Below, in pieces: positions 29,065 through 61,692 of a DNA stretch of 64,000 nucleotides (position 1 is the first letter of the stretch; each line of letters opens with the position of its first letter). The position numbers were made by a program, and so were the translations under genes. The notes under the pieces were generated by a model. It was not told the DNA's origin, made no database searches, and was given only the letters and a program-made list of their open reading frames with translations. The stretch is from Arenicola marina. Taxonomy: Eukaryota; Annelida; Polychaeta; Arenicolidae. The stretch covers positions 31,862,186-31,926,185 of the forward strand of contig OZ025258.1 of the NCBI GenBank assembly GCA_964019135.1. The letters run 5' to 3'.

Positions 29065-29142
29065 TCATCCGAAGATGCCGCCCAGTGTCGAGCAGAGGAT
29101 GATGGCCAGGATTATCAGGCACACGATGATCATGATCTTCTT
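29065..29142 (-). CDS. STX1: Syntaxin-1 terminal exon, anchor form 3 (vertebrate-like)
   Basis: The acceptor is TTGCAG. The exon encodes [20 protein letters not shown] followed by GGIFG and TGA, 25 residues. It is the form closest to the vertebrate syntaxin-1A anchor (STVGGIFA end). It lies furthest downstream, about 4 kb after the second terminal exon. Confidence 0.93.
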   Translation of the reverse strand, partial: KKIMIIVCLIILAIILCSTLGGIFG

Positions 29143-32100: not shown

Positions 32101-35100
32101 GTCGCGTAGCCAAATAATTCCCCAAAATACATAAAATAATTTAATTTTTCTTCTCTGTGTAACTGTGTAAATGCAGCAGCTGGAATAAGCACATTACATC
32201 AGCTGACCGAGGAGACAGGAATTACCCAGGTGGAGTACACATCTTAGGCTGCAAACGATGAGACTCAAGCGACACACAGTGTAGGACCTCATTACGACAG
32301 TCGTCTTCTTGGGCAACACATTGCGAGCGGAGACAGATAAATAACATTAGCGGTCCAGGCGTTACGGAATACCTACACCGCGAGCGGACAGACAGGCACC
32401 CAGCCCACCACCTTACAGGCCGGGTAGAGGACCCTGGACACAGCGCGTCTCTGTGGCACAGCAAGGCGACGGACCACTGTTATTATTCGTTATAAGCATA
32501 TAAGCTTGGCGACAGTCAATGTTAGTCTCTACCTTATAAGAACCCAGGAGAGTCCCATTTATCGCTCACTCTGAAGCAGTGACGTGGTGACAGACATGAC
32601 TAGCGGCAACATCGCCACGTGACATCAGCGGTGTGGGGGCGCGCCGGGTGGGGGCGCCACAGACACATACCTACACCGCTGGCCACGGCGCCAGACCCGC
32701 GGAACACACGTTGCCATGGGGACATAGGCATCCGGGACATGAAGTGACTGCCACCGCTGGGGTGGCGACATGATCAGCCCACATGACAGCGATCAAACAC
32801 CACAGGTCTTAAACAGTCATTCATCAGTCTCCTTTCCGTTAGAACTCTTTCACTGATTTAGCCGCACTCAAAAAGTCCGCTCTGCGCATGCGCTTGATGC
32901 CTTCCCATCCTTGACATCCAGATTCACCTCCAAACGAGGTCCAGGGTCACGTGTTTTCCTCCATCCAATGGCAATGCTCTTCGCGGACCCGTGACGTCAC
33001 GATGAGATGCCGATGTTTGCCTTGGAGTGGCCTTGCAGTCGGCCCTGGTGAAGCCCCCTCCCCTCTCCCCCTCCTAAGCCCACCCTCTGTGAGGCCCCCA
33101 GGCCCCTAAAGTCCTACTGACAGACCAATTATCAAGGCTATTATCGCTAACCCTACAACAACGCAAATTATAATAATGATCTTTTTCTGAAAGAAACGGG
33201 GGAAAAAAAAGAAGAAGAAAAAGGTAACGAAAGACAAAACAAAGAAAGTAACACGGTAACACCAATGCTGCTTACGCCTCTAACCGCAAAACGAAACTTA
33301 ACGTAACAGCTCCTGAGGAGAAAAATGGATGTTAGTCAAGAACCTTATCGACACGAGTCATAACAGTAGAACCAGCACAGGGTCAAGGTCAAGACAGCGT
33401 CTGCCACGGGGGCTCCAGATTACAGCATGGGCCTTGAGCAAGCTGTCCCAAGCGCCCGCCCCCCCCCACCCCCCACACACACATAGGCGGGAGGGGGGAG
33501 GGGTTGGGCAGAGGGTAGGTGAACCAAACAACACCAATATTATGAGACCCAGAACGTCTTTATGTTGCTATAGCCCCGGTCCCGTCCACGTATCCATCAT
33601 ATATTTACACCAAACATATATTATAATACGTTACAATTGTATCAAAAAATAAGCTTTTTCACGAACAAACGACCGTGAATCATATGAAACAAATAATCTT
33701 TAAAGACCACTTGGAAATGGAATTTGTTAAGACACGATTTATGTACAAAAGTTGAAGGCTTTGGCACTATGGAGAGAGGGACAGAACTGAATCGGACCTA
33801 AGGGGATGTTGGACTGTTAATTGCGAGCGTAGGCGAGCTCCTAAGGTAACATGCTTGCGTATTCAAAGTCCATTTCAAGCATAGTCTTACGATCATTTCG
33901 CGTAACAGCCCCCATGAGACTTTTTCGGAGTAAATATCAGGTGTACGTAAATATTCAAGCAAAGAGAGGACGGAGACTATTATGTCATGTCTTTAATAAT
34001 TAAATCAACTGCCCCAAAAAATTAACTGTTGCCAAGCAGAGCGCTCTTGGTGACCACCCATCGGCTGCTGTCATAGTGAGTAGTTGTGACGTCAACAACA
34101 CAATGGCAGTTCCTAAGCGACCGAATGAGAAGCACGTGCATGGTATACGTCATCCGGCCAAAGACATGCTTCATGGCAAGCCGAAGTGAGATAATTTTTG
34201 AATACTAATCTAGATGTATCCCCTCGAAATATCTGAAATAATAAATATACGCTCGTATTTTTTAGGTAGCACCTATCCATATTATAGCAGATCACAAGTC
34301 CCGAAGCATATTGCCTGAAAATCTCGCTCTCCACAGCCTAGCTGAGGAGTGGAGAGAACTCGAATTCCCCTCCCTCCCCCGCAACTCTCTCCCCTGCCAC
34401 AGGGCCTTCGACAAGCTCTACAACTATACAACTACATCTTTAGTCCCTCCGAAAAACCTACGATGACAACAATGAGACTGATGGCTATCACTACACAGAC
34501 AATAATGATGATCTTTTTCTGAAAGGAACAAAAACATCGAACAGTTGACGCGTGATCTAAGGCCTGGTTGGTACGGTGTAAAGCCGATAGGCGGCGTGGT
34601 TCATGCACCATTCAACGGTCTATACAACTCTGTACAACATCAGATACAACAGATACAACATAGCCTCTCTAGGACATCGAACATACAACATGTAATACTG
34701 GCTACTCCGTAGATATCTACCTACATGGTACAGTGTAGTTAACGTAAATAAAATCATATACGTGGCATTTATTATCAAATTAAACCAATACTCATTAAGC
34801 ACAGAAGTAATTATTTCAATTGAATTACCAATCTGGAAGTTTCATTCAATATAACAAAACACCTGAAAAACATACGACAGTAATCTGACCAGCCCATGAT
34901 GCCGGCCACAATGATTTGTGAGTGGGGACGGGGGACGGGGGACGGGGGAGGGGGGGGGGGGGAGCTAATTAGCAATGGACTTGCGTCAATAGTCCAGTGG
35001 GGGAGTTAGCAATCCTCAACTTGACGGCCCTATTGGAGGCTTGTCGACCTCGCTTGACGACAGATTGGAATGACGCACTCTATTGTACGGTTGTCGACCT

Positions 35101-38100
35101 CACTTGACGACAGACTAGAATGACCCACTCTATTGTACGGTTGTCGACCTCACTTGACGACAGATTGGAATGACGCACTCTATTGTACGGTTGTCGACCT
35201 CACTTGACGACAGACTAGAATGACCCACTCTATTGTACGGTTGTCGACCTCGCTTGGCGACAGATTGGAATGACGCACTCTACTGTACGGTTGTCGACCT
35301 CACTTGACGACAGACTAGAATGACCCACTCTATTGTACGGTTGTCGACCTCACATGACGACAGATTGGAATGACGCACTCTATTGTACGGTTGTCGACCT
35401 CACTTGACGACAGACTAGAATGACCCACTCTATTGTACGGTTGTCGACCTCGCTTGACGACAGACTAGAATGACCCACTCTATTGTACGGTTGTCGACCT
35501 CGCTTGACGACAGATTGGAATGACGCACTCTACTGTACGGTTGTCGACCTCACTTGACGACAGACTAGAATGACCCACTCTACTGTACGGTTGTTGACCT
35601 CGCTTGACGACAGACTAGAATGACCCACTCTACTGTGCGGTTGTCGACCTCGCTCGGCGACAGATTGGAATGACGCACTCTATTGTACGGTTGTCGACTT
35701 CACTTGACGACAGACTAGAATGACGCACTCTATTGTACGGTTGTCGACCTCGCTTGACGACAGATTGGAATGACGCACTCTATTGTACGGTTGTCGACCT
35801 CACTTGACGACAGACTAGAATGACCCACTCTATTGTACGGCTGTTGACCTCGCTTGACGACAGACTAGAATGACCCACTCTACTGTGCGGTTGTCGACCT
35901 CGCTCGGCGACAGATTGGAATGACGCACTCTATTGTACGGTTGTCGACTTCACTTGACGACAGACTAGAATGACGCACTCTATTGTACGGTTGTCGACCT
36001 CGCTTGACGACAGATTGGAATGACGCACTCTATTGTACGGTTGTCGACCTCGCTTGGCGACAGATTGGAATGACGCACTCTATTGTACGGTTGTCGACCT
36101 CACTTGACGACAGACTAGAATGACGCACTCTATTGTACGGTTGTCGACCTCGCTTGACGACAGATTGGAATGACGCACTCTATTGTACGGTTGTCGACTT
36201 CACTTGACGACAGACTAGAATGACGCACTCTATTGTACGGTTGTCGACCTCGCTTGACGACAGATTGGAATGACGCACTCTATTGTACGGTTGTCGACCT
36301 CGCTTGGCGACAGATTGGAATGACGCACTCTATTGTACGGTTGTCGACTTCACTTGACGACAGACTAGAATGACGCACTCTATTGTACGGTTGTCGACCT
36401 CGCTTGACGACAGATTGGAATGACGCACTCTATTGTACGGTTGTCGACCTCGCTTGGCGACAGATTGGAATGACGCACTCTATTGTACGGTTGTCGACCT
36501 CACTTGACGACAGACTAGAATGACCCACTCTACTGTACGGTTGTCGACCTCGCTTGGCGACAGATTGGAATGATGCACCTTATGGACAGCGGGTGGACGA
36601 CATAATGAAGGGAGGGTAGAGTAGGGAGGAGGGGGTAGAGGGAGGACTTACCCGTCGTGCTTTGCTCTGGTACTTGACGGCTTTCTTGGTGTCCGCCTTG
36701 GCTGTCTCAATGTAGTCGACGGACTGCTCAACGTTGTACTCAATCCTGTCAATCATTTCTCCCTGGCGACGACAATATTAGACAACACACTCTAACAGTC
36801 ATTCCTCACTTCGCCGGTACAGGGCTCAATTCATTTAAACCATTTAGTTCCAGCGATATCACTGAAGGTAATGTTCCCCACTGACTCTCCCAGCAGGGGT
36901 CGCTCCTTCCTAACAGCGCCGCTGTGTGGGAGTCACGAACGGCTTTTTAAAGACCTGATATAGATTTTTTTTCTTATCTAAGAGAAAATTGCGATGACAA
37001 GTGAGGACATGGGGCAGATTGGTTATTCAAACTTGACCTGGATCGCCCCTAACATATAGTTCCAAAGTAGGTACCATAGTGAATGCATGCTACATATGAT
37101 GTCATATTCCATTCCATGTTCTCTTATGGCTGGGGCTGGGTACTGGGGCTGGGTACTGGGGCTGGGTACTGGGGCTGGGTACTGGGGCTGGGTACTGGGG
37201 CTGGGTACTGGGGCTGGGTACTGGGGCTGGGTACTGGGCCTGGGTACTGGGTCTGGGTATTGGGCTGGGTACTGGGGCTAGGGCTGGGTACTGGGACTGG
37301 GGGCTGGGATAGCCCTGAATCTATGGCTATGATAGAAAAGTAAAAAAATCCACTTCACATGACAAATTTAAGTGTTTAAAAATAGCTTTCATAATTGGTT
37401 TCAATGAATTAAAAGTACTTTCTTGCTTTTACTAAATTGCCGGGTCCAGGGCCGTTTTTATCGCCCTTGCTTTGTTATACTTATGGGCCGTGGATGCTGG
37501 GGGCGGTACCGACCTGGCTCTCGACCAGCATGGCCATGTCCATGAACATCTCGTGCAGCTCCCTGATGCTGGTCTCCAGCTTGATGATGTCATTGTGTCG
37601 CGCCTCGATGTCCTTCAGCGACTGCTTGGCTTGCTGCGTCTCCATTATGATCTACCAAGGTCAAGTAGCAAGGTCAAATAGCAAGGTCAAATGACAAGGT
37701 AAAATAACAAAAGTCAAACAGCGAGGTCAAATGGCAAGGTCAAATAGCAAGGTTAAATAGCAAGGTCACTTCCACTGTTTCGTGCCACGAATGGCCCTGA
37801 CATTCAGTAACCCGATCCTGGTAGTACGCTCCGAGATAACGACTGAGTACATAATCACGTGAGATGTAACACGTGACAGTCTACCGGTTACGGTGACTGT
37901 CTACTGGACACAAGACAATAAAGGGGAGCATTTGTACCGTTACATGAGGACAGGGCCGGCCGCAGACACTTTATTTAAACATTGAGCTGAAACTCTTACC
38001 ATTCGTGGACACAATATTCAGCCAGATTAACACGACCATCAACGTCACATTGTCTCAGTTATTACACTTAAAACTAAAACAGTTGCTTCCGGTCAAAGTC

Positions 38101-41100
38101 CTGCCAGCATCTAAAATTGTTACATATTAAGGTCGGATTCGTGCAAGAATTATTATTATCACTTAGTTAAGACCAAAGTATATTTATTGCCTGGAGCCTG
38201 CTCCGCAACCCTAAATTGTATGCAATAAACCAGTGAACTGCACACAGTGACGTACTCCACATCGCTTCCAACTTACCGTCAGCTCTCAATAACAAATACC
38301 TTTTCTGCCAGGTTTGCCATTGCATTTTAAGCCAAGGTTACAGTTTTATTAAATGTGAATGCTAATCTTTCATTTCAGTGTATCATGCAGATTATGTTTA
38401 CTTGGCGGGAAGCAACTGTTAAATAGCTTTAACACCTGTTGCCCATCAGTGGCCCCGTCACTCACCCCTTGTGTGAATATTGATGGATTGCCGGATTCCA
38501 ACATGTCTTCCAGCTCGTCATTGGTTGTTGTTCGGCCAGCTAAAGTATGGACCACCATTTGGTTATTTATAATTATATATTATATTATAGAAAACGATAC
38601 CCATACACTTACTAGCATCTTGCTCTGTTTTGCTATAAAAAGGAAGCATATTCACATTGCGCAGAGAAAACTTGGTTGAAATTCTGCATTTTCATCACTT
38701 GAAGGCAAGCAAAAAAATGCTCCCAAGAAATATCCCACAGGTTTAAAATATTATTCTTTAACAAAGTGACAGCATTTAACGACACTTACAAGATATGCAC
38801 GACATCTTATCAGTTTTTAATTTCCTATGCCACGAATTGTTGAGTTGAGTTGAGGGTACATCATGTGTTATTACTCCACTGTTTCTGACTGGACGGCTGC
38901 TCAATAGTGTGTTCCTGTATGCAAGAGTTGGCGATGCAGTAAATATGTATGAAAGATATCAAAGATATTAAATAGAGACATTTAAAAATATTTTGTTTTC
39001 CATTATTTGTCATCTCCTATAATACCGGTAGATACCGACACAGGACCGCAGTGCAATGTTCTGATCTTTATATATATATATATATATATATACTTTTCTC
39101 AGTGTGACGACAGAGTGGCCTTGACCTTGAGATACACCCTTGTGTGACCGTGGTGGAGCCGTCTTTACCACACCGCACAAGCGACCTAGTAACCCAGTCG
39201 GTGTTACCTGGCGTCACTAGTGATCCAGTCAGACTGTTACCTGACGGCACTAGTGACCCAGTGACCCAGCGAGCGAGCGGCTGGCGCGGGCCCGCCATGC
39301 ACTGGGCGGCATGGGATGGACATCTAACGGACAACACCGACATGCGTGACACAACACCAGTCTACAGAGAAACGGCTCACAGCTCGCGGGGACGCTTACT
39401 GCTGAAGGTTAGGCGGTCTAACATGGAAGCCGTTATAGAGGTTCATTGAGGTGGAGGGTCCGGTGAAGGGGGGTGGGCGGATACTGAGAATATGCGACCT
39501 AGGGCAGAATGAATGATGAGGGGGGGGGGCGGGCGGCAGCAGTTCCATGGAGACCACCAGAGGGTAGCACACGCCAGGACAAGAGAACGTCCTCTACACA
39601 CACTGTTGGAACTAATCATAGATTTCTTGCTGAAATAGCCCGGTTTTGATTGACAGCTGGCAATTATCTGATGTGATCAAACACATAGCTAAGATTGATT
39701 CGTCGGGGATTCATTTGCGGAGATGCAAAGCTATCTGCATCAGTGGAGTTGTAAGACTAATATTAAACTTAGATAATATTAAACTAAACCACCGTAGGCC
39801 AGGTAAGGGCTCAGTATTATGTGGAGGGTGATGTACAATTGGTTTGTTATGGGTTAATTTCTTGGAATTACAATTTGAATTAATTGGAAGAAAGAAGCAG
39901 CGTTTTCTAACAGATAAGTAAATCTTAAGTAATACTTGATAGGCAGGTTTATAAGACAAACTGGAAGGCACACAGTGACAACCGAACGGACCACAAAGAT
40001 TAACAGAGACTGACCAGAGACCGCGGTCGGCAATTCCCGTGGATGACACTGTTAGTGACACTGTTAGTGACACTGTTATTGACACTGTTAGTGACACTGT
40101 TATTGACACTGTTAGTGATAGTGTTAGTGACAGTGTTAGTGACACTGTTAGCGACACTGTCAGTGACACCATTAGTGACACTTAGTGATACCATTAGTTA
40201 CACTGTCAGTGACACTAGTGACACTGTTAATGTCAGTGACACTGTTAGCGACACAGTTAGTGACACTGTAGTGACACCATTAGTGACACTGTCAGTGACA
40301 CTGTTAGCGACACCAATAGTGTCACCGTTGGCGTCACTCTCAGTGACAATGTTGACCAACAGCACAGACACGGTCCAACCAGAAGTCGTTGCAGCACGTT
40401 AACACGTTACTCGAGAACATCCAATGACGTTAAAGTTAACGTTAAGCATTAATGTTATATATTAACATTTCACATCCGGACAAAAAAGCTGCATCGACTT
40501 CGCACGTGACACAGCGCAATGACATCATAACCCACGTGACCAAAAAGTAAAGTAAACAGAGAGTCTTACTGATTTCCAACTGACGCTGTATACGGCCTAT
40601 GCAGCGTTCGCGGTAGTCTACCTGACACGTGTTGTAATCATTCATAACTTCCACAAATTTACGCGACAGTGTGGCGTGCTACAAGAAAACAAAAGGTTCA
40701 AAAAAACAAAAAAATCATAAAACTTGCAGATACGGAATGAAAACGCTTTTTTTCGGTTTTGAGGTTGTTGTTGTTGTTGGCGCAAACCTAGACGGCAACA
40801 GTTATCTTGGTGACCAACTATATAGAAAAGGGAGAAGAAGGCAGCACACTATTGTAAAATAACAGCCACGTGACAGACGCGAAGGGCCGACTCGGTCGGC
40901 GCTAAGGTCTGTTGTACCCTGTGCCCACGCCACACTCCCAACGCCACCCGGCGGCAACCGGCGACAACCCCCACCACCACGTGACTAGGCACTGCCCATG
41001 TGACCGGCAGCGAGCAGACAGCAGTCACGTCACGTGGTCTGCCGGAGGGGGCCGGGCCTCTCTCTTGGCCGGGGTCAGACTGCGCAGACGACAATCGCTA

Positions 41101-44100
41101 GCGCGCCAAATTTCAAACAATTACCCGCGCTTACCTAATCGATATAATGTATATTTATTTCTATTATCGATACCACTACAGCCTTCGCCATATATATAGG
41201 GCATTAAGGATCAAGCCATTCGGCGTATGTATGGGAGGTAGTCTGGCACGCTTTAGTGGGTGAGCCGGCAGCCGCGGGGTGAGGCGGCAGGGTGGGGCGG
41301 GAGGGTGGCGTGGTGAGGGCGGGGCGGGGCGGGGCGGACACACGCGGACACAGACACAGGGGCGCCGGGCGGGCAGTCCACACTGTCACGGGGACGGAGG
41401 GCGCTTGATCTATGGAACTTAAGTAAGAAAAAGATCAAGTAATCCTAGATGTCTAAGGCCAACCATGTAAGTCGTAGTAATGAAAGAAAACACACACACA
41501 AACACACCTACGTATAGCTATACGTGGAATACGCCAAGTACATTCAAATACTATCATTGTGTCCTAGATTAGTGAAATCGATCAGGAACATGGAACGATC
41601 AAAAAACAGGCGCATAAAGAAAGGAGCAGAACATCGACTCGGATGCGTGTGGTCATAATACATCGACATGTCGGCAAAGCAAAAGGGGCAACACAGTGGC
41701 AACATTGGGTGTGGGGTCTCCAGTGGTGAGGAAAGCAAATGGAAGTGGAAGAAGAAGAAGAAGAAGTGAAATAACAAATTAAAGAAAAACGAAGGCGAGG
41801 AATCAAAAAAACACAAACAAAATGGAATGCAGGAAGGGAAGAAACGGAGGAGGCTGGAAGGTGTGAGAACAAAGTGTATGAGTCCTTACTGATCTCCATC
41901 TGGCGCTTAATGCGAGCTTTGCAGCCGTCTCTGTAGTCGACTTGCGCCTTGTTGTAATCGTTCATCACTTCTATAAATTTACGTGAGATGGTCGAGTACT
42001 ACAATGACAAACACACATGACATGTTGGAGGACGCTCGGAGCGGCAGCCGGCCACGTGGCGCCGGTGGGCGATAATGGGTGGAGCAGGCCACGAGGTACA
42101 AGGCGGAGAGACTTGGCACGAAGAGATCGAGAGCGGATCACAGAGAAGAGGGGATGGGGGGAATGTGGGGGAGGAGGGGGGGGGGAGGGGGGTAAAGAGA
42201 TAGTCATAACACGAAAAAAAAAATCACATCCCAAGAATCAAACATGAAGCCAATCACCAGCAAAGTCACTGTGCAAGGTCACGGGATCACAAGAAGACAA
42301 CAGACGCGGGTTTTGGTAAAACTCAAGGTCAAAATCAGGGTGGGCACTGTAAGGAGAGACCAGTGGCGCCGCGGACCCTGCGCGGCCGGCACCGGAACTG
42401 GCCCGCCTCGTCACTTATAAATTCATCGCAGCAAAAATCATCAGCGATCCTTAACAACCGTGGAGAATTAGAGGGGACACAACACTGAAAAAACATATTC
42501 AGTAGCATGAGAAAAATCATACATTAGATGCCTCCAGGCGGAGGAAATATCACATTAAGACTGAACATTAGCGGCACGAAATCTTGTAGCAGAGTGGTCT
42601 TTCTGTGCCATAGACTATGTCCAATTTGACCTTTTGATAGAAGAACAATCTTGATTAAAGTGAGGGTTACTAGAGGTTCGGCTCGGCAGCTTTGGGCCGC
42701 CAAGTCTGCCTCGCTGGCGTGCGGGGTGAACAGGGTGGATGCACCAGAGCAGGGAGGGGTGGGAGGGGGGTAAACAGCAGGGCAGAACAGCGGGGAGGGC
42801 GGGGGAGGGAAGGGGAGGGGACAAATGGAACAATTAAACAATACCAATAGTCATTATATTTTCTGCTTATTCACTGCTCCTTATGATTCACACAGCTTGG
42901 CGAACTACACACACCACCATCTCCACGTGTGGCGCCTGTTGACAGCAATCCGTGGACAATCCCAAGTGTTGTCGTGTGGAGCTTATAAAGCACATGGTCA
43001 CGTGATCCAGTGCACGTGGTTGATCCAGGTGGCGTGCTCTCCCTGCCGCCATGTGGTTATAGACAAGTGAAATGATCTGTCATGTTGGTGACCTGTGGTT
43101 ATACACAGGTGAAATGATCTGTCATGTTGGGGACATGTGGTTATAGACAAGTGAAAGGATCTGTCTTGTTGGTGACCTGTGGTTATAGACAAGTGAAAGG
43201 ATCTGTCTTGTTGGCGACTTGTGGTTATAGACAAGTGAACTGATCTGTCGCGTTGGCGACTTGTGGTTATAGACAAGTGAAAGGATCTGTCACGTTGGCG
43301 ACATGTGGTTATAGACAAGTGAAAGGATCTGTCTTGTTGGCGACTTGTGGTTATTGAGAAGTGAAATGATCTGTCATGTTGGCGACTTGTGGTTATAGAC
43401 AAGTGAAAGGAGCTGTCATGTTGGCGACATGTGGTTAGAGACAAGTGAAAGGATCTGTCTTGTTGGCGACATGCGGTTACAGACAAGTGAAAGGATCTGT
43501 CATGTTGGCGACTTGTAGTTATAGACAAGTGAACTGATCTGTCATGTTGGGGACATGTGGTTATAGACAAGTGAACTGATCTGTCATGTTGGGGACATGT
43601 GGCCATAGACAAGTGAACTGATCTGTCATGTTGGCGACTTGTGGTTATAAACAAGTGAAAGGAGCTGTCATGTTGGCGACTTGTGGTTATAGACAAATGA
43701 AAGGATCTGTCATGTTGGGGACTTGTGGTTATAGACAAATGAACTGCTCTGTCATGTTGAGGACATGTGGTTATAGACAAATGAAAGGATCTGTCATGTT
43801 GGGGACATGTGGTTATAGACAAGTGAAAGGAGCTGTCATGTTGGCGACATGTGGCTATAGACAAGTGAACTGATCTGTCATGTTGGGGACATGTGGTTAT
43901 AGACAAGTGAACTGATCTGTCATGTTGGGGACATGTGGCTATAGACAAGTGAACTGATCTGTCATGTTGGGGACATGTGGCTATAGACAAGTGAACTGAT
44001 CTGTCATGTAAACGAGCGGGGCTTCCTGGGGCGGCATGACCACGTGAGGGATGGACGTCAAGGGCGCAACCCTGAAATACAGATCAGCTGCTCCCAAATG

Positions 44101-47100
44101 GAGCGTTGCTGCTACAGGATCCGCTGATCTATCGATCAGCTTTACTACGCTCGACTGACTCGACCCCGTTGCCACTACGCTCACCCCACCCCTCCACCGC
44201 CCTCCATCCACTCTCAGTGTACGCTGGGGCAGGCCGCGGGCAGTGGCGCCGCCTGGCGACCAGCGACAAACTGATACGGCCGCCTCGCCCGTTCGCTGCC
44301 CGTTCAGGCGACATAAACGCCGAATTGAGGGTCTAACTCACAATAATAGACTTTTGGTGGCGGCACTGAAAGAGCTTAAAGACGCTGGGCTAGGATGGGG
44401 GGGTGGGGGGTGGGGGTACAACCGAGGCTCGGACACCGGGCTGGCGGCCCCCACCCGCCTCACCCACCGAGGGAGACAGCCCCCCCCCACACGGTCGGCG
44501 TGGGCCGCACACAGGCGCCACCCCCCACTCCCCTCGCCCCCTCCCACCCCCGCTCCTTGTACGCTGAGGTTGTCATGGATGTGCGGAGGACATCAAACTT
44601 TACGGCCGTTGGTCGGTGGGACTCGGCCGGCCGCACGCAAGGTAAACCCAGGCGGGTTGATTCGGGGCCCGGGTCTCCCACAATATTTCCCATGGGGAAC
44701 ACCACCGCCAATGTAGACAGGACCTGGTAGGCATCGTGCAGAGGCCACGCCACGGAATCGACGCAACGTTAGTTCTATACTACGAAATTGGCGCTCCGTT
44801 AGTGCTATACTACGGAATTGACGCGCCGTTATGGCCACACTACGGAATTGACGCTCCGTTTGTGCTATAGTACGGAATTGATGAACAATTTAAGACTAAA
44901 AAACTATTGAAGTGACGCGCTGTTAGGGCCACGCTACAGAATTGACGCTCCGTTGGTGCTATACTACGGAATTGTCGTTCCGTTGGTGCTATACTACGGA
45001 ATTGACGCTCCGTTGGTGCTATACTAGTGAATTGACACTCCGTTAGTCCTATACTACGGAAGTGACTCGCCATTAGGGCCACACTACGGAATTGACGCTC
45101 CGTTTGTGCTATACTACGGATTTGACGAGTAAAAACCGCCGGAATTGACGCTCCGTGTAGAGTAAAAACAAAGGTACGCAAGTGACAGGTCGTATTGGCC
45201 GTACTGACGACTTGGCCGTGGATTGCCGCCACTGCGCGTGCTGCTAGCCGCTCAGCGCAACCAGGGGCAGGCAGCACCGGCACCAGCACCCACAGCTCGC
45301 GCTGAAGGTTTGCACACACGCCGGCCAGCCACCTATTGCAACCGCCACGCTAGCTCATCTATAAACACTGAGGAGATGATCGCGACTTGTAACGACCGGC
45401 AGTTAATACCCCGGACCGTCTAACGCACAGCGCCACCACACGGGTGTTTATTGTACTGCGAGCTGTAATGCCAGAAACCGGCAAAAACACAGTAATACAT
45501 TCAAAAGAATGAAAGGTTAAAGGTCAGACCCATATACAAGCCATGACGGGCAGGGGGCGCCCCGGCCGCACTGTGTTATCTCGGAAGGCCTTCTGACTGG
45601 AACATGGCAGATACATGTCATCAATGCACCGTTACAATGACGTCATCGCAGTTTATTATTGTCTTGTATATACACAACAAATCTGTGGTGAAAGTTAGAT
45701 GCCGTAACTTAAGCCGTGAGATGATATTTAAACTTTCTTTCTTACATACAGAGAGGATCAGCTGACTGGGTACAGACTGCGGACACGTGCTCACAAACCA
45801 CGTTTAAGGTGGAAGCGTTGCCGTCGTCACCGTGACAACGTGGCGGTAACCATGACAATACCTGTGTTTTTCGTATCCTAAGGTCGGCGGAGGATTTGTT
45901 GGAATGTTCTTCCTGCTCAATGTTTTGTTCGATCACTGCAACAAAAACAACAAAATAGACACTGATAGTGAGTGTTAAAGACACGACAGACAGGGTACCG
46001 GTGTCAATGGGTGGAGAGGGCGGGGGCTGGGGACTGGTGTTAAAGACACGACAGACAGGGTACCGGTGTCAATGGGTGGAGAGGGCGGGGGGCTGTGGAC
46101 TGGTGTTAAAGACACGACAGACAGGGTACCGGTGTCAATGGGTGGAGAGGGCGGGGGGCTGTGGACTGGTGTTAAAGACACGACAGACAGGGTACCGGTG
46201 TCAATGGGTGGAGAGGCGGGGGGCTGTGGACTGGTGTTAAAGACACGACAGACAGGGTACCGGTGTCAACGGGTGGAGAGGGCAGGGGGGCTGTGGACTG
46301 GTGTTAAAGACACGACAGACAGGGTACCGGTGTCAATGGGTGGAGAGGCGGGGGGCTGTGGACTGGTGTTAAAGACACGACAGACAGGGTACCGGTGTCA
46401 ATGGGTGGAGAGGGCGGGGGGCTGTGGACTGGTGTTAAAGACACGACAGACAGGGTACCGGTGTCAATGGGTGGAGAGGGCGGGGGGCTGTGGACTGGTG
46501 TTAAAGACACGACAGACAGGGTACCGGTGTCAACGGGTGGAGAGGGCGGGGGGCTGTGGACTGGTGTTAAAGACACGACAGACAGGGTACCGGTGTCAAT
46601 GGGTGGAGAGGGCGGGGGGCTGTGGACTGGTGTTAAAGACACGACAGACAGGGTACCGGTGTCAATGGGTGGAGAGGGCGGGGGGCTGTGGACTGGTGTT
46701 AAAGACACGACAGACAGGGTACCGGTGTCAATGGGTGGAGAGGGCGGGGGGCTGTGGACTGGTGTTAAAGACACGACAGACAGGGTACCGGTGTCAACGG
46801 GTGGAGAGGGCGGGGGGCTGTGGACTGGTGTTAAAGACACGACAGACAGGGTACCGGTGTCAATGGGTGGAGAGGGCGGGGGGCTGTGGACTGGTGTTAA
46901 AGACACGACAGACAGGGTACCGGTGTCAATGGGTGGAGAGGGCGGGGGGCTGTGGACTGGTGTTAAAGACACGACAGACAGGGTACCGGTGTCAATGGGT
47001 GGAGAGGGCGGGGGCTGTGGACTGGTGTTAAAGACACGACAGACAGGGTACCGGTGTCAATGGGTGGAGAGGCGGGGGGCTGTGGACTGGTGTTAAAGAC

Positions 47101-50100
47101 ACGACAGACAGGGTACCGGTGTCAACGGGTGGAGAGGGCAGGGGGGCTGTGGACTGGTGTTAAAGACACGACAGACAGGGTACCGGTGTCAATGGGTGGA
47201 GAGGGCGGGGGGCTGTGGACTGGTGTTAAAGACACGACAGACAGGGTACCGGTGTCAATGGGTGGAGAGGGCGGGGGGCTGTGGACTGGTGTTAAAGACA
47301 CGACAGACAGGGTACCGGTGTCAATGGGTGGAGAGGGCGGGGGGCTGTGGACTGGTGTTAAAGACACGACAGACAGGGTACCGGTGTCAATGGGTGGAGA
47401 GGGCGGGGGGCTGTGGACTGGTGTTAAAGACACGACAGACAGGGTACCGGTGTCAACGGGTGGAGAGGGCGGGGGGCTGTGGACTGGTGTTAAAGACACG
47501 ACAGACAGGGTACCGGTGTCAATGGGTGGAGAGGGCGGGGGGCTGTGGACAGGTGTTAAAGACACGACAGACAGGGTACCGGTGTCAATGAGTGGAGAGG
47601 GCGGGGGGCTGTGGACTGGTGTGAAAGACACGACAGACAGGGTACCGGTGTCAACGGGTGGAGAGGGCGGGGGGCTGTGGACTGGTGTTAAAGACACGAC
47701 AGACAGGGTACCGGTGTCAATGGGTGGAGAGGGCGGGGGGCTGTGGACAGGTGTTAAAGACACGACAGACAGGGTACCGGTGTCAATGAGTGGAGAGGGC
47801 GGGGGGCTGTGGACTGGTGTTAAAGACACGACAGACAGGGTACCGGTGTCAATGGGTGGAGAGGGCGGGGGGCTGGGGACTGGTGTTAAAGACACGACAG
47901 ACAGGGTACCGGTGTCAATGGGTGGAGAGGGCGGGGGGCTGTGGACTGGTGTTAAAGACACGACAGACAGGGTACCGGTGTCAACGGGTGGAGAGGGCGG
48001 GGGGCTGTGGACTGGTGTTAAAGACACGACAGACAGGGTACCGGTGTCAATGGGTGGAGAGGGCGGGGGGCTGTGGACTGGTGTTAATAACACGACAGAC
48101 AGGGTACCGGTGTCAATGGGTGGAGAGGGCGGGGGGCTGTGGACTGGTGTTAAAGACACGACAGACAGGGTACCGGTGTCAATGGGTGGAGAGGGCGGGG
48201 GCTGTGGACTGGTGTTAAAGACACGACAGACAGGGTACCGGTGTCAATGGGTGGAGAGGGCGGGGGGCTGTGGACTGGTGTTAAAGACACGACAGACAGG
48301 GTACCGGTGTCAACGGGTGGAGAGGGCAGGGGGGCTGTGGACTGGTGTTAAAGACACGACAGACAGGGTACCGGTGTCAATGGGTGGAGAGGGCGGGGGG
48401 CTGTGGACTGGTGTTAAAGACACGACAGACAGGGTACCGGTGTCAATGGGTGGAGAGGGCGGGGGACTGTGGACTGGTGTTAAAGACACGACAGACAGGG
48501 TACCGGTGTCAATGGGTGGAGAGGGCGGGGGGCTGTGGACTGGTGTTAAAGACACGACAGACAGGGTACCGGTGTCAATGGGTGGAGAGGGCGGGGGGCT
48601 GTGGACTGGTGTTAAAGACACGACAGACAGGGTACCGGTGTCAACGGGTGGAGAGGGCGGGGGGCTGTGGACTGGTGTTAAAGACACGACAGACAGGGTA
48701 CCGGTGTCAATGGGTGGAGAGGGCGGGGGGCTGTGGACAGGTGTTAAAGACACGACAGACAGGGTACCGGTGTCAATGGGTGAAGAGGGCGGGGGCTGTG
48801 GACTGGTGTTAAAGACACGACAGACAGGGTACCGGTGTCAACGGGTGGAGAGGGCGGGGGGCTGTGGACTGGTGTTAAAGACACGACAGACAGGGTACCG
48901 GTGTCAATGGGTGGAGAGGGCGGGGGGCTGTGGACAGGTGTTAAAGACACGACAGACAGGGTACCGGTGTCAATGAGTGGAGAGGGCGGGGGGCTGTGGA
49001 CTGGTGTTAAAGACACGACAGACAGGGTACCGGTGTCAATGGGTGGAGAGGGCGGGGGGCTGGGGACTGGTGTTAAAGACACGACAGACAGGGTACCGGT
49101 GTCAATGGGTGGAGAGGGCGGGGGGCTGTGGACTGGTGTTAAAGACACGACAGACAGGGTACCGGTGTCAATGGGTGGAGAGGGCGGGGGGCTGTGGACT
49201 GGTGTTAAAGACACGACAGACAGGGTACCGGTGTCAATGGGTGGAGAGGGCGGGGGGCTGTGGACTGGTGTTACAGACACGACAGACAGGGTACCGGTGT
49301 CAATGGGTGGAGAGGGCGGGGGGCTGTGGACTGGTGTTAAAGACACGACAGACAGGGTACCGGTGTCAATGGGTGGAGAGGCCGGGGGGCTGTGGACTGG
49401 GGTTAAAGACACGACAGACAGGGTACCGGTGTCAATGGGTGGAGAGGGCGGGGGGCTGGGGACTGGTGTTAAAGACACGACAGACAGGGTACCGGTGTCA
49501 ATGGGTGGAGAGGCCGGGGGGCTGTGGACTGGTGTTAAAGACACGACAGACAGGGTACCGGTGTCAATGGGTGGAGAGGGCGGGGGGCTGGGGACTGGTG
49601 TTAAAGACACGACAGACAGGGTACCGGTGTCAATGGGTGGAGAGGGCGGGGGGCTGTGGACTGGTGTTAAAGACACGACAGACAGGGTACCGGTGTCAAT
49701 GGGTGGAGAGGGCGGGGGCCTGGGGACTGGTGTTAAAGACACGACAGACAGGGTACCGGTGTCAATGGGTGGAGAGGGCGGGGGACTGTGGACTGGCGTT
49801 AAAAGACACGACAGACAGGGTACCGGTGTCAATGGGTGGAGAGGGCTGGGGGCTGTGAACTGGTGTTAAAGACACGACAGACAGGGTACCGGTGTCAATG
49901 GGTGGAGAGGGCGGGGGGCTGTGAACTGGTGTTAAAGACACGACAGACAGGGTACCGGTGTCCATGGGTGGAGAGGGCGGGGGGCTGTGAACTGGTGTTA
50001 AAGGCACGACAGACAGGGTACCGGTGTCCATGGGTGGAGAGGGCGGGGGGCTGTGAACTGGTGTTAAAGACACGACAGACAGGGTACCGGTGTCCATGGG

Positions 50101-53100: not shown

Positions 53101-55959
53101 GTTAAAGACACGACAGACAGGGTACCGGTGTCAATGGGCGCAGAGATCGGGGGGCTGGGGACTGGTGTTAAAGACACGACAGACAGGGTACCGGTGTCAA
53201 TGGGTGGAGAGGGCGGGGGGCTGTGGACTGGTGTTAAAGACACGACAGACAGGGTACCGGTGTCAATGGGTGGAGAGGGCGGGGGGCTGGGGACTGGTGT
53301 TAAAAGACACGACAGACAGGGTACCGGTGTCAATGGGTGGAGAGGGCGGGGGGCTGTGGACTGGTGTTAAAGACACGACAGACAGGGTACCGGTGTCAAT
53401 GGGTGGAAAGGGTGGGGGGCTGTGAACTGGTGTTAAAGACACGACAGACAGGGTACCGGTGTCAATGGGTGGAGAGGGCGGGGGGCTGTGGACTGGTGTT
53501 AAAAGACACGACAGACAGGGTACCGGTGTCAATGGGTGGAGAGGGCGGGGGGCTGTGGACTGGTGTTAAAGACACGACAGACAGGGTACCGGTGTCAATG
53601 GGTGGAGAGGGCGGGGGGCTGTGGACTGGTGTTAAAGACACGACAGACAGGGTACCGGTGTCAATGGGTGGAGAGGGCGGGGGGCTGGGGACTGGTGTTA
53701 AAGACACGACAGACAGGGTACCGGTGTCAATGGGTGGAGAGGGCGGGGGGCTGTGGACTGGTGTTAAAGACACGACAGACAGGGTACCGGTGTCAATGGG
53801 TGGAGAGGGCGGGGGGCTGGGGACTGGTATTAAAGACACGACAGACAGGGTACCGGTGTCAATGGGCGCAGAGGGCGGGGGGCTGGGGACTGGTGTTAAA
53901 GACACGACAGACAGGGTACCGGTGTCAATGGGTGGAGAGGGCGGGGGGCTGTGGACTGGTGTTAAAAGACACGACAGACAGGGTACCGGTGTCCATGGGT
54001 GGAGAGGGCGGGGGGCTGTGGACTGGTGTTAAAAGACACGACAGACAGGGTACCGGTGTCAATGGGTGGAGAGGGCGGGGGGCTGGGGACTGGTGTTAAA
54101 GACACGACAGACAGGGTACCGGTGTCAATGGGTGGAGAGGGCGGGGGGCTGTGGACTGGTGTTAAAGACACGACAGACAGGGTACCGGTGTCAATGGGTG
54201 GAGAGGGCGGGGGGCTGTGGACTGGTGTTAAAAGACACGACAGACAGGGTACCGGTGTCAATGGGTGGAGAGGGCGGGGGGCTGGGGACTGGTGTTAAAG
54301 ACACGACAGACAGGGTACCGGTGTCAATGGGTGGAGAGGGCGGGGGGCTGTGGACTGGTGTTAAAGACACGACAGACAGGGTACCGGTGTCAATGGGTGG
54401 AGAGGGCGGGGGGCTGTGGACTGGTGTTAAAGACACGACAGACAGGGTACCGGTGTCAATGGGTGGAGAGGGCGGGGGGCTGGGGACTGGTGTTAAAGAC
54501 ACGACAGACAGGGTACCGGTGTCAATGGGTGGAGAGGGCGGGGGGCTGTGGACTGGTGTTAAAGACACGACAGACAGGGTACCGGTGTCAATGGGTGGAG
54601 AGGGCGGGGGGCTGGGGACTGGTGTTAAAGACACGACAGACAGGGTACCGGTGTCAATGGGTGGAGAGGGCGGGGGGCTGTGGACTGGTGTTAAAGACAC
54701 GACAGACAGGGTACCGGTGTCAATGGGTGGAGAGGGCGGGGGGCTGTGGACTGGTGTTAAAAGACACGACAGACAGGGTACCGGTGTCAATGGGTGGAGA
54801 GGGCGGGGGGCTGGGGACTGGTGTTAAAGACACGACAGACAGGGTACCGGTGTCAATGGGTGGAGAGGGCGGGGGGCTGTGGACTGGTGTTAGAGACACG
54901 ACAGACAGGGTACCGGTGTCAATGGGTGGAGAGGGCGGGGGGCTGTGGACTGGTGTTAAAGACACGACAGACAGGGTACCGGTGTCAATGGGTGGAGAGG
55001 GCGGGGGGCTGTGGACTGGTGTTAAAGACACGACAGACAGGGTACCGGTGTCAATGGGTGGAGAGGGCGGGGGGCTGTGGACTGGTGTTAAAGACACGAC
55101 AGACAGGGTACCGGTGTCAATGGGTGGAGAGGGCGGGGGGCTGGGGACTGGTGTTAAAGACACGACAGACAGGGTACCGGTGTCAATGGGTGGAGGTGGA
55201 GGTGGAGAGGGCAAATGGTTGCCAATACATAAGCCTAGGCCATCCACAGCACATCCCCCAGGGCCCAGGATCACCCCCCCCCACACAATGGATTGACTAT
55301 CGATCAGAACGTTTACGGCCTGTGGTTTGTGGTCATCGATTAGCGGTGATGACACCAGATGGCGCCACCAGCTGGAGTGACTTGTTACTACGGCTGCCTG
55401 GTGTATCAACCCGCCACCACCTCCCCCCCCCCTCCCTCACAAACGAGCAACGACCCTCCCCGCCCCCAGCCACGACCCCCAGCCACGACCCCCAGCCACG
55501 ACCCCCAGCCACAGTCGGCCCATTGTAAACAGGTTCCCCTGTCGCTAAACACCCCATTACAAAATACACCAGGCTGACTGACACATTTCACAGATATTGA
55601 TTTCATGATTGTCTTTAAAGTAACGAATCTGGGCTTCTCGACCAACGTTCAGCCATAAAAACCTGTATTTATTGCTGACATCAGCACTCGGTCAGTAGCT
55701 GTGGAATTAGGATTCAAACATTTACACAAGTACACGAGTTCTTGTCAGCGATATTAGCCATCATTAACCAGTACCAGTAACCAATACAAGTGACCAATAA
55801 TACTGACCAGTAATACTGACCAGTACCATTGACCAGTACCACTGACCAGTACCAAGGGATGGGGGGAGGACTGATTGCACTCACACTTTAACTTTGCTCG
55901 GACTTTGTTTGCTGTTTTCTTGATGTCCGCCATGAGCTCTTCTAACTCCTCCTTCATTT
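29065..55959 (-). CDS. STX1: Syntaxin-1 (t-SNARE), 3' part of the gene, with alternative Hc and membrane-anchor exons
   Basis: The minus-strand exons in order are 55885-55959, 45862-45935, 41890-41998 or 40570-40678 (alternatives), 38466-38539, 37514-37651, 36652-36762, then one of the terminal exons 34432-34518, 33106-33186 or 29065-29142. All phases fit. The protein reads [29 protein letters not shown], an Hc helix, [60 protein letters not shown] and [13 protein letters not shown], closely matching syntaxin-1. Syntaxin-1 is the plasma-membrane Qa-SNARE that pairs with SNAP-25 and synaptobrevin and binds Munc18 in synaptic vesicle fusion. The zero-layer glutamine is expected in the SNARE motif within LVESQGEMID. 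The first exons (N-peptide, Ha and most of Hb) are not in the window as far as I can see. Confidence 0.95.
29158..29176. repeat. Short GA microsatellite
   Basis: A run of alternating GA lies 15 bases upstream (in minus sense) of the anchor 3 exon. On the minus strand it is a CT run, so it forms the pyrimidine tract of that acceptor. Confidence 0.8.
29177..30790. other. Syntaxin intron sequence between anchor exons 2 and 3, with microsatellites
   Basis: It contains a 29-bp unit (GCGTTGTGCCACACATACAC) repeated four times at 29739-29852, (TA)n at about 30046-30097, and a CRE palindrome at 30774-30781. No exon was recognised. Confidence 0.6.
30795..31320. repeat. ~27-bp tandem array, imperfect
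   Basis: Units are built from CCTATCCTATGTCAGTGTCC and TGTCAGA with many substitutions and a shortened 15-bp form (CAGTATCCTGTCAGA) in the middle. Confidence 0.9.
31321..33105. other. Syntaxin intron or 3' UTR sequence with CRE palindromes
   Basis: Perfect TGACGTCA occurs at 31636-31643, 31678-31685, 31798-31805 and 32992-32999, several beside CACGTG E-boxes. GTGGGGGCGCGCCGGGTGGG followed by GGCGCCAC lies near 32634-32660. No coding exon was recognised. Part of this may be 3' UTR of the form ending at 33106. Confidence 0.5.
33106..33186 (-). CDS. STX1: Syntaxin-1 terminal exon, anchor form 2
   Basis: The acceptor is TTTCAG. The exon encodes [20 protein letters not shown] followed by GLSVGL and TAG, 26 residues. 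It is in phase 0 after the QSKARR exon, like the other two anchors. Confidence 0.9.
   Translation of the reverse strand, partial: KKIIIIICVVVGLAIIALIIGLSVGL
33187..34431. other. Sequence between anchor exons 1 and 2
   Basis: No exon was recognised. A CRE palindrome is at 34087-34094. It probably includes the 3' UTR of the form ending at 34432, but no clear minus-strand AATAAA was found close to that stop. Confidence 0.5.
34432..34518 (-). CDS. STX1: Syntaxin-1 terminal exon, anchor form 1
   Basis: The acceptor is CTTTCAG. The exon encodes [20 protein letters not shown] followed by GFSEGLKM and TAG, 28 residues. The hydrophobic core is similar to form 2, but the tail after it (GFSEGLKM) is longer and carries charges. 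It is the first anchor exon reached after the SNARE exon. Confidence 0.9.
   Translation of the reverse strand, partial: KKIIIIVCVVIAISLIVVIVGFSEGLKM
34519..35040. other. Syntaxin intron sequence with a G-rich tract
   Basis: Unique AT-rich sequence, with a G-rich tract of GGGGAC units at about 34925-34963 that could form a quadruplex. No exon was recognised. Confidence 0.6.
35041..36590. repeat. 50-bp tandem array in the syntaxin intron before the anchor exons, 31 copies
   Basis: The unit is TTGTCGACCTCACTTGACGA, CAGACTAGAATGACCCACTC and TATTGTACGG. Two main subtypes, GATTGGAATGACGC and GACTAGAATGACCC, largely alternate, giving a 100-bp higher-order pattern. The array fills most of the intron between the SNARE exon (donor at 36651) and anchor exon 1, beginning about 60 nt after the donor in transcript sense. 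Confidence 0.97.
36652..36762 (-). CDS. STX1: Syntaxin-1 SNARE-motif exon, C-terminal half
   Basis: This is a 37-codon exon, [37 protein letters not shown]. It has GT-AG borders and phase 0 on both sides. It carries the C-terminal heptads of the SNARE motif and the basic juxtamembrane end that is spliced to one of three anchors. Confidence 0.97.
37128..37312. repeat. 13-bp G-rich tandem array
   Basis: The unit is TACTGGGGCTGGG, about 13 copies, becoming irregular at the end. Runs of three to four G every few bases make quadruplex formation plausible on the plus strand (template strand for syntaxin). Confidence 0.95.
37514..37651 (-). CDS. STX1: Syntaxin-1 SNARE-motif exon, N-terminal half
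   Basis: This exon has 46 codons, [46 protein letters not shown], with GT-AG borders and phase 0 on both sides. It holds the first half of the SNARE helix including [15 protein letters not shown], nearly invariant in syntaxin-1. Confidence 0.97.
37654..37772. repeat. ~14-bp array of AGGTCA half-sites
   Basis: AAGGTCAAATAGC and variants repeat about eight times next to the acceptor of the previous exon. Each intact unit holds an AAGGTCA nuclear receptor half-site. Confidence 0.85.
37773..38465. other. Syntaxin intron sequence
   Basis: No exon or repeat was recognised. Two CACGTG E-boxes lie near 37856 and 37870. Confidence 0.5.
38466..38539 (-). CDS. STX1: Syntaxin-1 linker exon
   Basis: This exon is 74 nt, entered in phase 1. 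The junction codon plus [20 protein letters not shown] and FTQG follow. With either Hc exon it gives an EIT-GRTTT junction, matching the known syntaxin-1 linker that holds the closed-conformation DELEDMLE region (the LE residues targeted in open-syntaxin mutants lie nearby). The donor is GTGAGT. Confidence 0.95.
38540..40040. other. Syntaxin intron sequence with small repeats
   Basis: It contains a (TA)n tract at about 39068-39091 and a three-copy ~39-bp repeat (with CCAGTCGGTGTTACCTG-like units) at 39185-39266. No exon was recognised on either strand. Confidence 0.6.
40041..40345. repeat. 12-bp imperfect tandem array
   Basis: The unit is GACACTGTTAGT with CAGT, TATT and CCATTAG variants, about 25 copies. 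It begins about 225 nt downstream of the 40570 donor in transcript sense. Confidence 0.9.
40570..40678 (-). CDS. STX1: Syntaxin-1 alternative Hc exon, form a (conserved form)
   Basis: This 109-nt exon encodes [36 protein letters not shown] plus one base. The acceptor is TTGTAG and the donor is A|GTAAG. It is close to the vertebrate segment ([27 protein letters not shown]). It has the same length and phases as 41890-41998. Confidence 0.95.
40679..41889. other. Intron between the two alternative Hc exons, with a GC-box tract
   Basis: About 1.2 kb. A GC-rich part (40860-41110) has many CpG and E-boxes. GGGCGGGGCGGGGCGGGGCG at about 41319-41338 makes adjacent Sp1-type GC boxes and a possible quadruplex. 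No further Hc-like exon was found in it. Confidence 0.6.
41890..41998 (-). CDS. STX1: Syntaxin-1 alternative Hc exon, form b
   Basis: This 109-nt exon encodes [36 protein letters not shown] plus one base. The acceptor is TTGTAG and the donor is A|GTAAG. It is identical to form a at 24 of 36 residues, with the same phase 0 entry and phase 1 exit. Use of both, or of neither, would shift the frame of the linker and SNARE exons, so they must be mutually exclusive for a full-length protein. Confidence 0.95.
41999..43040. other. Syntaxin intron sequence
   Basis: It contains G-rich patches near 42140-42192 and 42750-42820. No exon was recognised. Confidence 0.5.
43045..44010. repeat. 42-bp tandem array, about 23 copies
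   Basis: The unit is GTGGTTATAGACAAGTGAAA, GGATCTGTCATGTTGGCGAC and TT or AT. The period is 14 codons, which explains a 330-codon open frame on the minus strand ([14 protein letters not shown]). It lies in a syntaxin intron, so it is not a separate gene. Confidence 0.96.
44011..44764. other. GC-rich syntaxin intron sequence
   Basis: CpG-containing sequence with G/C runs (for example 44396-44416). Open frames here are low-complexity and no splice-flanked exon was recognised. Confidence 0.5.
44765..45170. repeat. 30-bp tandem array, about 13 copies
   Basis: Units are ACGCTCCGTTGGTGCTATAC and TACGGAATTG, with a second type ACGCGCCGTTAGGGCCACAC. Ends are degraded and some units are shortened. 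Confidence 0.93.
45171..45861. other. Syntaxin intron sequence
   Basis: No exon was recognised. It has a CAGGGGGCGCC motif near 45551 and a CRE palindrome at 45638-45645. Confidence 0.5.
45862..45935 (-). CDS. STX1: Syntaxin-1 Hb-Hc connecting exon
   Basis: This 74-nt exon encodes (L)[24 protein letters not shown], joined by one base from the upstream exon. It matches the [21 protein letters not shown] segment of syntaxin-1. It ends in phase 0, so either Hc exon can follow. Confidence 0.95.
45972..55190. repeat. 66-bp tandem array, about 140 copies, within one syntaxin intron
   Basis: The unit is GTGTTAAAGACACGACAGAC, AGGGTACCGGTGTCAATGGG, TGGAGAGGGCGGGGGGCTGT, GGACTG. Most units are 66 bp, with 65- and 67-bp forms that shift the frame. 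Variant units (CCATGGG, GGCGCAGAG, TGGAGTT, AACGGGTGG) group by region. The two ends differ: the left end lies about 37 bp from the exon at 45935, and the right end stutters GGTGGAGGTGGAGGTGG. Open frames of up to 640 codons on plus and 595 on minus are products of the 22-codon period. GGGTGGAGAGGGCGGGGGG in each unit is a plausible quadruplex sequence. Confidence 0.98.
55191..55884. other. Syntaxin intron sequence with two small repeats
   Basis: A ~13-15-bp unit (CCCAGCCACGACC) is repeated at 55466-55515, and a 12-bp GACCAGTACCACT-type repeat lies at 55768-55855. A CCAGATGGCGCCACCA motif is at 55355-55370. Confidence 0.7.
55885..55959 (-). CDS. STX1: Syntaxin-1 Hb-helix exon (first syntaxin exon in the window)
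   Basis: This 75-nt exon has acceptor CTTTCAG and donor T|GTGAGT. It encodes (E)[24 protein letters not shown]. It matches the [22 protein letters not shown] segment of vertebrate syntaxin-1. It is entered in phase 1, so at least one earlier exon exists. Confidence 0.96.
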
Positions 55960-56224
55960 CTGAAAGACACAACGACATTGTTACATGAATGAATAATGAG
56001 CAAGTCAATAGACTTTCTGTAAGACACAATGACAATGTAGAATAAATAAATAAATAAAAACACTTAGTTTTGTGTGAATTGGCGTGTACAGCGGCAGATG
56101 TGACCCCCTCTGTGGTTTGTGGAGGGTTGCCGGGGCATTTATCCCCTTCAGTGTCACACTGGTGGAATATACCGGCCGAATACAGACTGATGTCTGGCAC
56201 CTATAGACCTGAGAGTCGTAGAGG

Positions 56225-56430
56225 AACAGCTCAATCACCCTCTCCACACAATCCATCATACAACCCAGTTACCGCTCTATTACCATCCTAACAGTCCATT
56301 ATACAACCCAGTTACAGCTCAATCACCCTCTCCACACAGTCCATTATACAACCCAGTTACAGCTCTATTACCATCCCAACAGTGCATTATACAACCCAGT
56401 TACAGCTCTATTACCATCCCAACAGTCCAT
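56225..56430. repeat. 45-bp tandem repeat, about four copies
   Basis: TATACAACCCAGTTACAGCT recurs every 44-45 bp with CTATTACCATCCCAACAGTC or TCAATCACCCTCTCCACACA between. Confidence 0.9.
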
Positions 56431-56489
56431 TACTGAAGAAATAGTTTAATATTATTCTTATATAAGAAAGAAACGTAGCAGTGACATAT

Positions 56490-57000
56490 CACTGTGTCAC
56501 CCCCCCCCCTCCCTCCACAGTGCTCTATGGGACCCACCACTGTCACCCCACTCGCTATCGTGTCACCCCCCCCCCCTCCAGTGCTCTACGGGACCCACCA
56601 CTGTCACCCCACTCGCTAACGTGTCACCCCCCCCCCTCCAGTGCTCTACGGGACCCACCACTGTCACCCCACTCGCTATCGTGTCAGCCCAATCCCAGTC
56701 TTCTGTGGGCCGCCATTGTCTATCTTGTCACGCCCCCACAAGGTCCTGTGGGACCCCCACTGTCACCCCACCCCCACACACACAATGTCCTGTGGGACCC
56801 CCACTGTCACCCCACCCCCACATACCCAGTGTCCTGTGGGACCCCCACTGTCACCCCACCCCCACATACCCAGTGTCCTGTGGGACCCCCACTGTCACCC
56901 CACCCCCACATACCAAGTGTCTGTGCCAGCCCCTACTCTCTATTGTGCCCCTCCCCCTCACAGTTCTCTGTAGGACCCCCACTCCCCATCGCCCCCCCCC
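56490..57000. repeat. C-rich repeats of ~60 and ~46 bp
   Basis: First come three units around GTGCTCTACGGGACCCACCA. Then there are units of CCTGTGGGACCCCCACTGTC, ACCCCACCCCCACATACCCA. Proline/cysteine-rich open frames come from these units. Confidence 0.85.
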
Positions 57001-57945: not shown

Positions 57946-58129
57946 TCAGCTGGGTCGGCTGGGTCCCCGCCTAGGTTTCCTTCCCTGTGGCACTGAACTT
58001 ACACGTTGTACACGGTACCCCTCCCACCAACCCAACAATGTGTATTATATGGACACTACTAGAAGAAAAACAAAAAAGAAACCGTCATGTTGGGTGTGCG
58101 ATGGGTGTGTCCCAGGGGGCGATGTCAGG

Positions 58130-59215: not shown

Positions 59216-59219
59216 AGAG

Positions 59220-61690: not shown

Positions 61691-61692
61691 CG

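Follow-up and report, generated by a model that had tools for sequence, protein, structure and literature searches.

Tandem, mutually exclusive exons are known from a neuronal SNARE gene of vertebrates, SNAP-25, whose exons 5a and 5b are the nearest described counterpart of the pair analyzed here, two versions of the exon for the Hc helix in a syntaxin-1 gene of the polychaete Arenicola marina (contig OZ025258.1, positions 31,862,186 to 31,926,185, a stretch of 64,000 nucleotides [nt] that we call the window). The SNAP-25 alternatives differ at 9 of 39 residues (PMC2581893; this and the other articles given by PMC number are cited from excerpts). Unlike the present pair, they span the end of the first SNARE motif and the start of the linker with its palmitoylated cysteines, and involve no autoinhibitory helix. 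Within the syntaxin family, vertebrate STX3 likewise yields two isoforms, syntaxin-3A and -3B, through differential exon use, but exons 1 to 8 are common to both and the difference lies not in Hc but in exons 9 and 10, which cover the SNARE motif from its midpoint on, together with the membrane anchor (PMC11476516). The Caenorhabditis elegans syntaxin-1 forms UNC-64A and -B arise from alternative last exons for the anchor (8a and 8b), resembling a set of three in the Arenicola gene, and are controlled by the CELF protein UNC-75; in contrast to the present case, the anchor changes and Hc does not (PMC4946901). The syntaxin splice forms that we met in the literature have their differences in the SNARE motif or in the anchor. 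A further relative is the s-syntaxin of PDB entry 1s94, known here as a single protein sequence, with an Hc helix of the type of one of the two Arenicola exons and with matching flanks; we take this protein, labeled s-syntaxin in the entry, to come from the squid Loligo.

At the Arenicola locus, the Hc helix is encoded twice, by exons A and B (Table 1), and an account that we hold to be probable as a whole would run as follows. The Hc exon would have been duplicated in tandem long ago to give A and B; each mature mRNA would take one of the two; messages with both or neither, for which an early stop is computed, would be lost to nonsense-mediated decay; and the A or B protein would have an altered stability of its closed form, or an altered grip on Munc18, according to cell type.

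That A and B form a mutually exclusive pair, with one of them in each mature mRNA, is very likely from their anatomy. The two exons are adjacent and homologous, have compatible splice sites (TAG directly before and GTAAG directly after each), share a length of 109 nt, and both enter at phase 0 and leave at phase 1. Identity between them is 79 of 109 at the base level and 24 of 36 at the residue level, and they correspond to residues 120 to 155 of rat syntaxin-1A in the numbering of the matching PDB chains. The coordinates, the length, the phases, the number of identical residues, and the borders of the shared exons at 45862 (end) and 38539 (start) agree with the first-pass annotation of the window. 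When the genome (867 Mb in 762 contigs, best candidates scored) was searched with exon B, only the loci of B and A were returned, the latter at E = 2.4e-10. In PDB sequence searches, A and B each align with syntaxin chains over Hc. Together these results exclude a chance likeness. A third Hc copy was not seen, either in the window, where no further match fell below E = 1.3, or among the best candidates from the genome.

The annotation had also described A and B as a homologous, same-phase pair of which both or none would break the frame, and the computed products bear this out. Joining A to B brings a stop at codon 67 of the test frame, with four downstream junctions more than 50 nt away, and skipping both brings one at codon 51, with two such junctions; these messages should therefore be targets of decay, and neither joint inclusion nor joint skipping would give a functional protein. 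The pair might conceivably have been created by the assembly, through two haplotypes or loci joined in tandem. Long tandem arrays abound in the window and by general knowledge carry a risk of misassembly, but in a blastn comparison of A and B, each with 300 nt of sequence to either side, the one strong match, of 134 nt and 75% identity, is the exon extended by 15 nt upstream and 10 nt downstream; the other matches were of 19 nt or less at E 0.048 or worse. Flanks so unalike argue against an assembly repeat or tandem-joined alleles, the exons themselves are too diverged for alleles, and we consider an artefact barely credible.

The squid protein bears most directly on the age of the pair. The best PDB match of exon A is s-syntaxin (1s94_A, E = 8.8e-16), with the best syntaxin-1A chain at 3e-11, and for exon B the order is reversed, syntaxin-1A (1.1e-14) being ahead of s-syntaxin (5.3e-13). 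Squid s-syntaxin is identical to A at 30 of 36 residues and to B at 25. Six residues, Y120, I123, D143, A147, K150, and M153, are common to A and squid at positions where B and rat carry H, L, E, G, Q, and L. In a quartet comparison these six sites group A with squid against B with rat, whereas a pairing of A with B is favored by one site (132) and one of A with rat by none; the grouping of A with squid was recovered in 9,693 of 10,000 parsimony bootstrap replicates. Of the 12 positions where A and B differ, squid has the A residue at 8, the B residue at 3, and some other residue at 1; the corresponding counts for rat are 2, 8, and 2 (Fisher P = 0.03). In the segments on either side, 23 of 24 and 16 of 17 squid residues are identical to those of the shared exons (counted by eye, with a chimeric query), and we therefore take s-syntaxin to be the product of the same gene. 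As a check on conservation, then, the squid protein carries the A type and gives independent support to exon A. Because this one squid protein belongs to the A type, the duplication is most likely older than the split of annelids and molluscs, with squid expressing the A type, and on the same sequence evidence exon A is not a dead copy. Exon A was also considered as a vertebrate syntaxin-2, -3, or -4 type, a candidate that we rejected, as B was nearer to all seven references tried. The B type we presume to be that of fly and worm as well.

Several points temper this dating. The comparison covers one lophotrochozoan sequence, over 36 residues, and squid does not side with A at four of the 12 differences, as counted above; a lone A-type exon in squid, without B, would still fit. 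The shortness of the exon, the single squid sequence, and its siding with B at 3 of 12 differences could also speak for a recent duplication in the annelid lineage, with the likeness of A to squid as convergence. Such convergence would have to arrive at the same residues at six sites, against a quartet score of 6 to 1 to 0, and a recent origin sits poorly with synonymous sites that look saturated and with introns that do not align beyond 15 nt, so that we regard it as quite improbable.

Exons A and B look constrained by purifying selection. By the NG86 method, nonsynonymous divergence between them (dN) is 0.20 and synonymous divergence (dS) 1.80, rough values from 108 bases for which two other estimators gave no value, and identity by codon position is 27, 32, and 19 of 36 at positions 1, 2, and 3. 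In simulations of unconstrained drift starting from exon B (4,000 runs per value), in which a run passed when it kept at least 24 identities and acquired no stop, 1 of 4,000 runs passed at 0.45 substitutions per site and none at 0.9 or 1.8. The argument is weakened, however, because dS is saturated and comes from 108 bases only, and at smaller distances drift passed more often, in 1,094 of 4,000 runs at 0.2 and 135 of 4,000 at 0.3 substitutions per site. These results bear on the possibility that A is a decaying duplicate, no longer spliced in, with B alone in use. In its favor, A departs from rat, fly, and worm at positions where those three are alike, and its pyrimidine tract is weaker, with 10 of 17 positions compared to 13 of 17 for B. 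Yet the linker exon (9 of 17) and the two SNARE exons (11 each), all shared, have tracts about as weak; the frame of A is open, its splice borders are intact, dN is low relative to dS, the drift simulation speaks against decay, and a squid protein has a sequence of the A type. We therefore consider a decaying exon A very improbable.

As to what the choice does to the protein, the changes from B to A are H120Y, A121S, L123I, V128I, T136K, C137A, E143D, R144G, I146K, G147A, Q150K, and L153M. Several are polar or charged, and exon A carries a net charge of +3, exon B one of +1. R151, I155, and C145 are the same in both. Syntaxin-1 R151 and I155 dock on the MUN domain of Munc13 (PMC13398699, PMC8728020), and because both versions keep them, docking to Munc13 should not differ directly, which makes an effect on Munc18 binding or the closed state likelier. 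Tentatively, then, the likeliest effect of the exon choice would be a shift in the stability of the closed form, or in the grip on Munc18, from one cell type to another. Against this counts the position of the differences, which show no significant tendency to point away from the hydrophobic face of the helix (P = 0.17). AlphaFold predicted one helix (residues 3 to 35, mean predicted local distance difference test score [pLDDT] 91.9) for exon A alone and two helices (6 to 21 and 24 to 34, mean pLDDT 87.6) for exon B alone, a predicted difference that carries little weight, each being a single sequence folded out of context.

The pair might instead be spliced alternatively to give proteins that behave alike, the choice serving mainly expression control, with nonsense-mediated decay setting the dose of syntaxin-1. 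Both the joined and the skipped products have an early stop with downstream junctions, the Munc13-docking residues are the same in A and B, and the hydrophobic swaps are conservative (L/I, L/M, V/I), all of which would suit such a role. The six-site A signature common to squid and annelid, in contrast, suggests that selection has acted on the sequence of the A protein and not just on the existence of a second exon, and we judge control of dose as the main role unlikely. A possible reading, though less likely than not, is that of a lophotrochozoan exon switch in the autoinhibitory helix, older than the annelid-mollusc split, whose two products would be set in advance to differ in closed-state stability or in their grip on Munc18.

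How the choice between A and B might be made is a separate matter. The first-pass annotation had spoken of a strict either/or choice built into the gene, and this goes too far: the frame only makes the wrong products useless and leaves the splicing choice unmade. No physical barrier to the joining of A and B was found among steric spacing, a U2/U12 mismatch, and competing RNA pairing. With 1,211 nt between A and B and GT-AG borders throughout, neither steric nor minor-spliceosome exclusion is expected; the spacing lies far above the limit of 50 nt applied for steric exclusion (PMC5740500). Base pairing able to loop out exon A, exon B, or both, sought in 400-nt flanks, was matched or exceeded in 30, 8, and 13 of 30 shuffles, respectively, the pairing around exon A being weaker than in every shuffle, and docking-type pairing was dropped as a selector because its energies were no better than those of shuffles. 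Not every mutually exclusive pair needs such a barrier: among human clusters, steric spacing was observed in 57 (9%) and U2/U12 mismatch in 5 (0.79%). Frame-incompatible exons are common there, since 377 clusters (60%) contain exons whose length is no multiple of three, and reads joining the exons turned up in 83 (22%) of these 377 (PMC5740500).

The remaining step of the account, the selection of A or B itself, would probably fall to tissue-specific RNA-binding proteins acting at the flanking introns. Motif enrichment was assessed against 200 shuffles in seven regions, for a total of 49 tests without correction. The A-B intron holds 14 GU motifs (shuffle mean, 3.4) and 20 UCUU-type motifs (shuffle mean, 9.2), in both cases above all 200 shuffles. 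Plus-strand stretches of equal length reached these counts in 4 of 301 cases for GU and in none of 301 for UCUU. An ELAV-type T-rich motif was high before exon A (0 of 200 shuffles as high), as were, downstream of exon B, MBNL- and QKI-type motifs in the next intron (0 of 200 for either type, with a tandem repeat responsible for at least part of the QKI excess), and RBFOX motifs showed no excess in any of the seven regions. In C. elegans, UNC-75 has its binding site downstream of exon 8a of unc-64 and promotes the use of that exon (PMC4946901). The GU sites of the A-B intron would suit a CELF protein of this kind, which we offer as a lead only. The enrichment is weak, being modest next to equal-length minus-strand stretches, 18 of 302 of which were as high for GU and 4 of 302 for UCUU (stretches overlapping the A-B intron included), and is made less specific by unrelated motifs that are high too, NOVA- and MBNL-type motifs in the A-B intron reaching P = 0.02 each.

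A 12-base tandem repeat, TGACACTGTTAG, of about 26 copies lies at 40044-40353, about 220 nt downstream of exon B. It probably accounts for the ACTAAY-like motifs on the transcribed strand.

We would place the pair among tandem mutually exclusive exons, an ordinary form of splicing that here occupies a new and fitting site in syntaxin-1, with the squid match adding to its interest. An Hc exon pair in syntaxin-1 is not described among the matches listed from open-licence literature (titles and abstract starts, a body in which subscription journals are mostly absent). Syntaxin is likewise not named in the main text of two surveys of tandem exons, PMC9741552 and PMC5740500. This is weak evidence that the pair is new to the literature. 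A natural switch in Hc, the helix that keeps syntaxin closed, would offer a matched isoform pair tested by evolution with which to probe closed-state stability in relation to release, without artificial "open" mutations. If molluscs share the pair, squid syntaxin work concerns the A form specifically and, should the reading as a lophotrochozoan switch be true, measurements in squid and in vertebrates were made on different versions of syntaxin.

The gene that carries the pair can be assigned with some precision. A tblastn search of the window with a rat syntaxin-1A sequence placed the syntaxin exons on the minus strand, and exon ends were set by eye at splice consensus. The product, of a family member that drives vesicle fusion in nerve cells, has an Habc domain followed by a SNARE domain and a membrane anchor, as in syntaxin-1 (Qa-SNARE) proteins. 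It matches Pfam PF00804 (Syntaxin) at 102.8 bits in the B isoform and 100.5 in the A isoform (cut-off, 26.7), and PF05739 at 66.4 bits in both. In PDB sequence searches the best-matching chains are syntaxin-1A and the nearest relatives syntaxin-1 proteins. Within the limits of these searches the gene is shown to be the annelid syntaxin-1; a second copy was not returned by the genome searches, which scored best candidates only and gave a further match on another contig (C10) at 34% identity. Exons for the N-terminal peptide and Ha, which would lie upstream of the Hb exon (55959 to 64000 or beyond), were detected neither in the window nor by a genome search with a fly sequence; they may be divergent, split, or inside a gap, and the window includes 400 N. 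Toward the other end, three alternative last exons encode the membrane anchor, each with an acceptor, a KKI start, and its own stop. Of the three, last exon c matches rat syntaxin-1A best, and the end of last exon b resembles what we take to be that of vertebrate syntaxin-3A. Two Hc exons and three last exons could combine into six full-length forms.

Table 1. Exons of the Arenicola syntaxin-1 gene and the A-B intron (positions in the window)
Feature	Positions	Strand	Remarks
Hb helix exon, shared	55885..55959	-	tblastn; donor inferred by eye at GTGAGT consensus
Exon before Hc, shared, ends in phase 0	45862..45935	-	Counterpart in squid s-syntaxin
Hc exon A, 109 nt, squid type	41890..41998	-	
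A-B intron, 1211 nt	40679..41889	-	Pyrimidine run 41766-41747, GU run 41507-41490
Hc exon B, 109 nt, rat type	40570..40678	-	
Linker exon, shared, enters in phase 1	38466..38539	-	
SNARE motif, first part, shared	37514..37651	-	
SNARE motif, second part, shared	36652..36762	-	
Alternative last exon a, own stop	34432..34518	-	
Alternative last exon b, own stop	33106..33186	-	
Alternative last exon c, own stop	29065..29142	-	

Relatives of the pair were also sought with the A/B alignment in collections of genome and viral contigs, neither of which is meant for animals. None of 41 pattern matches in the viral contigs was kept, and 65 in the genome contigs left one locus, in Halobacillus (L018), which was rejected as a chance likeness. 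There, at 3001-3048 of the locus, the tail of a bacterial protein nearly equals part of the Hc helix; we take the frame to be that of peptidyl-tRNA hydrolase.

The mitochondrial contig of the assembly (15,942 bases) carries nad4, nad1, nad3, nad2, cox1, cox2, cox3, nad6, cob, atp6, and nad5 on one strand. Of these 11 frames, 10 were scanned against Pfam and 9 matched, nad6 (no match) and nad3 (unscanned) being named by position and appearance. From cox2 on, the series cox3, nad6, cob, atp6 follows the arrangement of annelids, unlike the one in molluscs or arthropods, and on this basis the genome is taken to be an annelid's.

Finally, tandem repeats are a prominent feature of the locus. The intron that leads from the Hb exon to the one before Hc consists mostly of a 9.2-kb array (45972-55195) of a 66-base unit, in about 140 copies with 97% matches. 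Further long minisatellite arrays lie in and around the gene at 3443-5162, 5507-6756, 7484-10175, 10520-15272, 35030-36578, and 61697-64000, and two unit types, of 50 and 27 bases, recur at separate places.

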